Program-made: the position numbers and the translations under genes
Shown here: positions 51,614 to 57,606 of the stretch, piece by piece
How positions within the stretch are numbered: position 1 is the stretch's first letter
How the letters are laid out: every line of letters starts with the position of its first letter
NCBI GenBank assembly: GCA_014859445.1
Contig: JACUUC010000010.1
Span: 1-64,000 of the forward strand
Length of the DNA stretch: 64,000 bases
Direction of reading: 5' to 3'
Source: Bacterioplanes sp.
GTDB taxonomy: Bacteria; Pseudomonadota; Gammaproteobacteria; Pseudomonadales; Oceanobacteraceae
The notes under the pieces: model-generated
Databases searched by the model: none
What the model was told of the DNA's origin: nothing
Seen by the model: only the letters and a program-made list of their open reading frames with translations

Positions 51614-51727
<114 letters not shown>

Positions 51728-56316: not shown

Positions 56317-56684
56317 TGGAATTCAGTGGCTACTGGCTAGCCTATTTGGGTTTTGCGTTGGTGTCGTATTGGTGCTGGACGCAGCTATTTTTTTGGCTTC
56401 GGCGCGGTTCTGACGTGCGTCAGCTGTTTCACTTACTTGGCGCGGTCTTGATTTTTGCTCCCGCACCGATTGAGCAGGGCGCCAATTATTTTGCTCCCGC
56501 ATTCGTGATCGTTCCTTTTGTCGCTATTGGCGATGGGTTAGAGCAAGCGCAATACGCCATTATCTGGTGGGTTGTGGCGTTGTGTATCGGTGCGCTGTTG
56601 CTCACGTTGCGTCAATTGCAGCGGTGGCTCAGTCAACGTTGGTCTCGTCCGAAGGAGGACGCCAACACCGCCATCGGGGAGTGA
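56316..56684 (+). CDS. Small inner-membrane protein of unknown function
   Basis: A 122-aa protein with three or four hydrophobic segments (about 4-24, 34-50, 56-70, 78-100) and a basic cytoplasmic tail (RQLQRWLSQRWSRPKE). GGAAGG lies 5 nt before the ATG, which itself overlaps the ycgN stop. Members at this place in the rnd-ycgL-ycgN cluster occur in related genera; no activity is known to me. Confidence 0.75.
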   Translation: MEFSGYWLAYLGFALVSYWCWTQLFFWLRRGSDVRQLFHLLGAVLIFAPAPIEQGANYFAPAFVIVPFVAIGDGLEQAQYAIIWWVVALCIGALLLTLRQLQRWLSQRWSRPKEDANTAIGE

Positions 56685-56812
56685 TTGGTCGTTATTGTCG
56701 TTCTGATTGTTTGCTTTTTGATCGTTTTCTCATTGTTGTCAGTAATAAATGACAAATAAAAGAGTTTTTTTATTACTTTTCTGGCTAACCAGAAAAACTT
56801 TGCTAACTTTAA
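56685..56812 (+). other. Intergenic region with inverted repeats and probable promoter
   Basis: AT-rich stretch between the small membrane protein and the structured leader. It has an AT-rich inverted repeat with a T-run (AATAAAA...TTTTATT, 56755-56773), perhaps a weak terminator, and a perfect 8-bp palindrome TTTTCTGG-CTAA-CCAGAAAA (56777-56796) placed where an operator would overlap the -35 of a downstream promoter (-10-like TTGCTA or TAACTT near 56800-56808). Confidence 0.4.
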
Positions 56813-56937
56813 GACAACCCCCCAGCGGAATGTAATCATTCGTGGGTGGTGAGGTGACTTGGGGGATATTCCACCAGTGGAGCAATCGAATCGGAGTTTG
56901 ATCGTAAACACTCCGGTGGATGATGAGGTTGGGAAAT
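56813..56937 (+). promoter_or_regulatory. Structured 5' leader, possible RNA switch
   Basis: About 125 nt with dense pairing potential. CCCCC..AG (56818-56825) pairs with CT.GGGGG (56859-56865); GAATG-TAAT-CATTC (56828-56841) forms a hairpin inside. TCCAC (56870-56874) can pair with GTGGA (56916-56920), enclosing CGGAGT/ACTCCG (56892-56897 with 56910-56915). GGGTGG (56844-56849) competes for CCACC (56871-56875). The ribosome-binding site GAGG (56925-56928) follows the last stem. It does not match riboswitch classes I know. Confidence 0.5.
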
Positions 56938-57606
56938 ATGGCAAATCATATTTTTATTTTGGCAACAGTGATGTTGTTAGCGGGTATTTTCGGTGGCTTG
57001 GTGAATTATTACCTTTACGGCGATAAAGATCCTGATGCTGCAAGCTTGCCGCGTTTTTTAGTGGTGGGTGTGGGTGCTTCATTTTTGGTGCCAGTGATTC
57101 TTGACATGGTCAATAGTGAGCTGGTGTTAGAAAGCCAAGGTGATCCATCACGCTTGTTGATCTTCACCGGATTCTGTTTGATTTCCGCATTATTAAGTCG
57201 CTTTGTGATTGATAACTTGTCGGATCGTATCTTGAATGAAGCGCAGATGGCGAAGCAGCGTTCAGAAGACGTCCAACAAAGTTTACGCATTATGCAAAAT
57301 GAGTTATTGCCGTTGATTGATACCGAAACAGAGCACGATGTGGACGGTCATGATGCGCAAGCGGCACAAGCCAGTGATGAATTGGATGTTACGTCGACTC
57401 AGGTGTTGAAGATCTTATCGAGTGGTCGGTTTATTTTCCGCTCGTTGGCTGGTATCTGTCGTGAGGCAAACGAAGAAGAATCCACCATTTTGAAAACACT
57501 GAATGTGTTAGTGACACGAAGCTTGGCCGGTAAGGTAAGCGGTAAAAACGGTGTGCGCTGGCACATCACGGAAAAAGGTCGTCGCGTGCTCGAAGCAAAC
57601 TTGTAA
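56938..57606 (+). CDS. YEATS-associated-type three-helix membrane protein with C-terminal winged helix
   Basis: A 222-aa protein. Three membrane helices (about 4-26, 41-58, 73-92) with AGIFGGLVNYYL, VGVGASFLVPVIL and FTGFCLISALLSRFV, a pattern I associate with the family called YEATS-associated helix-containing protein. A helical linker (95-150, partly acidic) leads to a winged-helix domain (about 155-222: VLKILSSGRFIFRSLAGI, then RWHITEKGRRVLEA). It could be a membrane-tethered regulator. No YEATS, SLOG or other conflict-system gene adjoins it. Start at 56938 with GAGG 9 nt upstream, preceded by a structured leader and followed by a strong terminator: a self-contained unit. Confidence 0.7.
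   Translation: MANHIFILATVMLLAGIFGGLVNYYLYGDKDPDAASLPRFLVVGVGASFLVPVILDMVNSELVLESQGDPSRLLIFTGFCLISALLSRFVIDNLSDRILNEAQMAKQRSEDVQQSLRIMQNELLPLIDTETEHDVDGHDAQAAQASDELDVTSTQVLKILSSGRFIFRSLAGICREANEEESTILKTLNVLVTRSLAGKVSGKNGVRWHITEKGRRVLEANL

Follow-up and report, generated by a model that had tools for sequence, protein, structure and literature searches.

Comparison of the window (the whole 64,000-nt stretch of Bacterioplanes sp. DNA analysed here) with its relatives showed that an RNA stem, named P3, is maintained in evolution by compensatory base changes beside the ribosome-binding site of a gene encoding a YLATT-domain protein. The stem lies within positions 56813–56937 of the forward strand, a region that, from its sequence context, is very likely the mRNA leader of the YLATT gene, and which, judged by its compensatory changes, would be of the structured cis-acting kind. 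The leader is apparently real, restricted to the family and of a known general kind, with no earlier description apparent: it is not described in the available parts of the literature searched, which included PMC7652899, PMC7159879, PMC2864571 and PMC3936740 and lay mostly outside subscription papers. It also offers a first handle on the control of the YLATT membrane regulator and of its VWA neighbour.

Genomic context and extent of the leader

The region is preceded by a hypothetical ORF, which ends at 56684, and followed by the gene of a 222-residue protein (56938–57606, forward strand). At its N terminus this protein carries a YLATT domain (PF20303, Pfam E 4.1e-40), and no transporter or enzyme domain was found in it by Pfam. 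AlphaFold2 modelled the protein with moderate confidence (mean pLDDT 70.5, pTM 0.38), showing a long helix beyond the membrane part, followed by a C-terminal winged helix, for which the top matches among solved structures were MarR-family regulators (Foldseek, best E 6e-4). The initial annotation had called the product a membrane regulator, which is a fair label because of the YLATT membrane domain and the MarR-like winged helix. The next gene encodes a VWA protein, and the ORFs behind it are presumably related to MoxR and to a second VWA protein.

A conserved promoter-like element is present at 56781–56809 on the forward strand, consisting of CTGGCT, a spacer and an extended -10-like TGCTAACTT, and was recognised by pattern matches and by ungapped alignment rows. 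The strict pattern used, CTGGCTAACN{4,12}TTTGCTA, gave 20 matches in 19 of the 42 family genomes searched, representing five of the eight genera, and all but one of these matches (19/20) were upstream of the YLATT gene. The promoter-like rows of 33 leaders, which together cover all eight genera, can be aligned ungapped, with the upstream box diverged in some of them. The element (CTGGCTAAC-N-TTTGCTA) is unusually conserved and nearly gene-specific, yet far from the sigma-70 consensus; a strict sigma-70 scan did not detect it at 56781–56809, and a sigma-54 reading was rejected since, by our own reading, the GG-to-GC spacing is wrong.

Placed from this element, transcription would start at about 56812–56816, coinciding with the 5′ edge of the region and giving a putative 5′ leader of approximately 124 nt, within the range of 89–175 nt seen in the family where the promoter motif was found. 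Close relatives are separated within the leader by gaps of one or two bases, and it is therefore unlikely to be a coding stretch. One genome (L002/L031) has about 265 bases more than usual between promoter and gene, with the 3′ part of the leader intact; the extra bases may contain inverted repeats according to our own reading, and could represent an insertion element or an assembly artefact. The Shine-Dalgarno (SD) sequence GAGG is located at 56925–56928, and GAGG is found near the start codon in 34/34 family leaders.

A covarying stem beside the Shine-Dalgarno site

The two arms of P3, UCGGAGU (56891–56897) and ACUCCGG (56910–56916) on the forward strand, were delineated by covariation in alignment A4, which comprises the window and eight relatives; these nine leaders were chosen for good alignment, and four of the nine rows are near-identical. 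In A4, P3 is a 10-pair stem with 95.6% of the cells paired and six of the 10 pairs changed on both sides, a count reached by 1/500 shuffles, whereas none of the 500 shuffles reached its percentage of paired cells or its covariation score, and the best slid register was only 53.3% paired. The stem extends inwards in the relatives, with two of four such inner pairs broken in the window, and the pair 56897–56910 is an addition of the window's own. Covariation had been named as the check in the initial annotation, and a stem beside the SD sequence does covary. The annotation had also placed a "final stem" just before GAGG; the covarying P3 ends there, with its 3′ end 8 nt ahead of GAGG, but was not spelled out unless the final stem was meant to be P3.

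In alignment A2 (12 sequences, with MAFFT errors left in), P3 was 75.9% paired with three double-change pairs, a number reached by 20/500 shuffles, and a covariation score reached by 0/500. A 22-leader cross-genus MAFFT alignment was excluded from the counts because the 5′ arms were misaligned in some genera. Free prediction by RNAalifold drew P3 on A6 only, and on A1, A2 and A7 instead drew an SD-closing CUCU/AGAG hairpin (P4 type) that was not drawn on A6. In individual sequences, P3 was part of the minimum free energy (MFE) structure, or within 0.5 kcal/mol of it, in 9/12 modelled leaders.

A covariance model built from P3 and its flanks (the 3′ part of the leader) was searched in the 42 family genomes, and gave matches at E ≤ 1 in 19 of these. 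The YLATT leader was the best match in 15 genomes, of which eight had been used in building the model and seven had not; the matches in the seven independent genomes started at 6e-9 (G007), 3e-6 (G004) and 6e-4 (G016), with the weakest at 0.3, and part of the score comes from the SD and start sequence. The model misses the leader in the remaining gene-bearing genomes searched. No convincing second leader locus was found in the 42 family genomes, with seven weak off-target matches (E 0.007–0.7) in five genomes. In the subclade of the window, a nearly invariant unpaired stretch, GUGGAGYAAUC (window 56878–56887), lies between the arms of P3 and those of a rival pairing, Plong, and its flanks form, by our own reading, a short inverted repeat (UCCG...CGGA) in several relatives.

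For leaders that no longer align, we tested for a hairpin ending approximately 11–22 nt before the start codon, in comparison with dinucleotide shuffles. Such a hairpin was found at p ≤ 0.05 in 14/34 family leaders and in 10/20 representative leaders (Fisher 1.4e-9, which is too strong as the leaders are related). The representatives, one or a few per group of look-alikes, were chosen after the result for the 34 leaders was known, with 14 leaders dropped (L002, L004, L009, L011, L012, L018, L019, L023, L024, L025, L032, L039, L059 and L060); five leaders without the promoter motif (L027–L030 and L047) had been set aside earlier, two of which have p ≤ 0.05. Two controls were used: 1/32 window genes, picked by script with an SD requirement and not from annotation, reached p ≤ 0.05 (Fisher 0.39), as did 1/20 leaders of the next gene, encoding the VWA protein, from the same genomes (Fisher 0.97; Mann-Whitney 2.8e-6). 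A helix test with fixed partition missed short hairpins and therefore gave a weaker result (Fisher p 0.0014, 20 leaders). The one RNA feature that the leaders seem to share widely is a stem whose place beside the SD sequence is fixed while the sequence turns over, and screens that rely on leader sequence would often overlook this type.

A different hairpin (A7 columns 46–81) was observed upstream of the YLATT gene in one subclade (L051, L058, L059, L060 and L048). It is a 12-pair covarying stem with 98.3% of cells paired, four double-change pairs and a covariation score reached by 0/500 shuffles, and its nearly invariant loop, RUUARGCRGUA, resembles a recognition site. The loop motif had no match in 244 genomes of the order, which says little since this sample omitted the genomes known to carry the motif.

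Rival pairings around the ribosome-binding site

The initial annotation had described GGGTGG (56844–56849) and GGTGG (56915–56919) as competing for the same CCACC (56871–56875). These positions, like those given for GAGG and the start codon (56938), are correct, and both stretches are indeed able to pair with the single CCACC; the two pairings fared differently. The downstream one is partly conserved. It corresponds to the forward-strand stem Plong, with arms UCCACC (56870–56875) and GGUGGA (56915–56920), the latter sharing two bases with P3. Plong is the MFE structure of the window and dominates its fold at 37°C (probability 0.95, versus 0.05 for P3, which costs 4.1 kcal/mol), but lies 4.8–9.7 kcal/mol above the MFE in six modelled relatives, a seventh (L013) being left out of this range as Plong was forced there with one U-U pair. 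In A4, 36/36 cells were paired over the four pairs 56870–56873/56917–56920, with one double change and 202/500 shuffles as good, Plong varying very little in this alignment. In A2, its six pairs had 87.5% of cells paired, with a covariation score reached by 4/500 shuffles and a double-change count reached by 226/500. A downstream partner for CCACC had p ≤ 0.05 in 4/11 leaders, with a value of 0.066 for the window. Plong was rejected as the main stem, given its single double change in A4 and its cost in relatives.

The upstream pairing, GGGTGG with CCACC, was rejected as it is at chance level (p 0.43 versus shuffled 5′ segments, pairing probability 0.00 in the window); an upstream partner of CCACC had low p-values (0.014–0.028) in 3/11 leaders, the near-identical L003, L004 and L032. 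The initial annotation was right that structure near the SD sequence matters, and half right on which pairings are involved. Further upstream, a candidate 5′ hairpin (CCCA.CG.AATG / CATT.CG.TGGG) can be drawn at 56821–56846 on the forward strand by our own reading of the sequence, and competes with a pairing of 56820–56825 with 56859–56864 that is preferred by folding. The 5′ half of the leader aligns poorly across genera. At the other end of the leader, the start codon lies inside a predicted AU-rich hairpin (AAATATG/CATATTT, window 56934–56953) with pair probabilities >0.9 at 37°C, which by our own reading is also present in L006 and in a shorter form in L005.

The 3′ arm of P3 also contains a candidate anti-SD sequence (CUC at 56911–56913 on the forward strand, CUCU in relatives), which faces GAG at 56925–56927. 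This pairing, named P4, could be extended by AAC (56907–56909) with GUU (56928–56930) according to our own reading. Four consecutive CUCU/AGAG (or CCUC/GAGG) pairs can be formed in 20/34 leaders, though not in the window, and in these 20 leaders the 3′ arm of P3 could thereby bind the ribosome site instead, in many cases enclosing a loop that resembles a CsrA site. P4 hardly varies, and it lies 2.5–11 kcal/mol above the MFE in 11/12 modelled leaders, being the MFE structure in one (L014).

Possible functions of the leader

Since the maintained stem adjoins the ribosome-binding site, the leader probably tunes translation, and we hold with moderate confidence that it does so in cis and specifically for the YLATT gene, acting on translation initiation of the YLATT/MarR-like membrane regulator. 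Modelled accessibility of the SD sequence was not significantly below that of control genes (p 0.086; median 0.23 in 21 leaders versus 0.28 in 32 controls).

The tuning might be brought about as follows. The default ON state would be the one with P3 formed, in which P3 would occupy the CUCY stretch otherwise able to pair with the SD sequence, and would keep a short unpaired site next to a hairpin open to the ribosome. If P3 were opened, possibly by a ligand, by a small RNA, by a protein (CsrA, for example) or through folding during transcription, CUCY would become able to pair with GAG/AGAG (P4) and translation would be lowered; alternatively, the tuning could be static, without a trigger. In its most specific form, this is a two-state switch between P3 (SD free) and P4 (SD closed, with a GGA-type loop), responding to CsrA or another trans-acting factor ahead of a membrane-tethered MarR-like regulator, in a family that would keep the logic of a stem beside the SD sequence, exchange nearly all leader sequence, and in one subclade add a separate hairpin with a near-invariant loop. 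We offer this switch as a tentative model that may well prove wrong. The initial suggestion of a translational switch or thermosensor stands in having structure, including a covarying stem, beside the SD sequence; the switch among GGGTGG, CCACC and GGTGG is unsupported, its upstream pairing being at chance level, and so is the thermosensor, the temperature model of the window being flat.

A purely static feature, in which the stem maintains a standby site for ribosomes or shields the mRNA, with no regulation, is possible though rather doubtful. The position of the hairpin is kept with its sequence turning over, and no loop common to all genera was seen, which is also how the leader resembles structured standby-site 5′ UTRs, where a hairpin just 5′ of the SD sequence keeps its position and is free in sequence. 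In contrast to these, the subclade of the window has the conserved unpaired GGAGYAAUC, which hardly differs between the window and those closest to it and which, together with the near-invariant loop of the second subclade, is more than a plain stem needs.

Control by CsrA/RsmA, with CsrA binding the P4 loop AAYGGAUG, stabilising the SD-closed hairpin and being opposed by P3, appears unlikely, although several features of the relatives suggest it. The sequence ANGGA is located directly upstream of the SD sequence in 18/34 leaders and is found more often than expected (26 observed versus 14.8, 21 leaders), the stem of four consecutive pairs is available in the 20 leaders noted above, and csrA is present in the genome. 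In the available parts of PMC7652899, GGA in hairpin loops and an ANGGAN hexaloop are described for CsrA/RsmA sites, and the RsmA-repressed psl leader carries an SD/anti-SD hairpin, to which the GGA-type-loop hairpins upstream of or including the SD sequence in many relatives are alike. Unlike psl-type leaders, the leader of the window lacks ANGGA both in the part ending 12 nt ahead of the start (count 0) and at the SD site, which reads GUGGA, and also lacks the four-pair stem; GGA is missing at the SD site in 13/34 leaders, GGA by itself shows no more than a mild enrichment (70 observed versus 57 expected), the P4 loop has 8 nt and not 6, and the covarying stem is P3 rather than the SD hairpin.

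It is improbable that the leader is a ligand-binding riboswitch belonging to some undescribed class. Mutually exclusive pairings can be drawn near the SD sequence, as in translational riboswitches and RNA thermometers, and conserved unpaired stretches occur beside covarying stems; these stretches are conserved within subclades, with no single aptamer seen across the family, and neither the lack of a convincing second locus in the 42 genomes nor a downstream protein without transporter or enzyme domain fits such a role. The initial annotation could match the leader to no known RNA class, and the Rfam search agreed: at the gathering threshold the leader had no match, and around it the sole sub-threshold match up to E 5 was a trypanosomatid snoRNA on the opposite strand (E 0.31), which is not credible.

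That this is an ordinary leader with meaningless pairings is very unlikely, despite a window sequence that by itself behaves like its shuffles. The 138 nt fold with an MFE of -39.7 kcal/mol (z -0.29, with 73/200 shuffles folding equally well), the 124-nt leader has a z of -0.88, and the window's own hairpin at the P3 position is unexceptional (p 0.26 versus dinucleotide shuffles), so that the "densely structured" leader of the initial annotation is at chance level in the window sequence alone; it is the covariation of P3, and the cross-genus excess of hairpins against two controls, that argue against chance.

An RNA thermosensor is hardly credible, as in the window, where pairings include or adjoin the SD sequence and the start codon, modelled GAGG accessibility was flat (0.58, 0.59, 0.57, 0.57 and 0.60 at 4, 15, 25, 37 and 45°C), and the 24 modelled leaders had no consistent trend, with accessibility rising from 4 to 45°C in some (L016, 0.08 to 0.46; L010, 0.13 to 0.50; L014, 0.02 to 0.28) and falling on warming in others (L003, L015, L007 and L020). 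The only RNA matched at the Rfam gathering threshold in the 64-kb window was the bacterial small SRP RNA (RF00169, 73.2 bits), located at 51623–51719, just upstream of a gene which we take to be dnaX-like.
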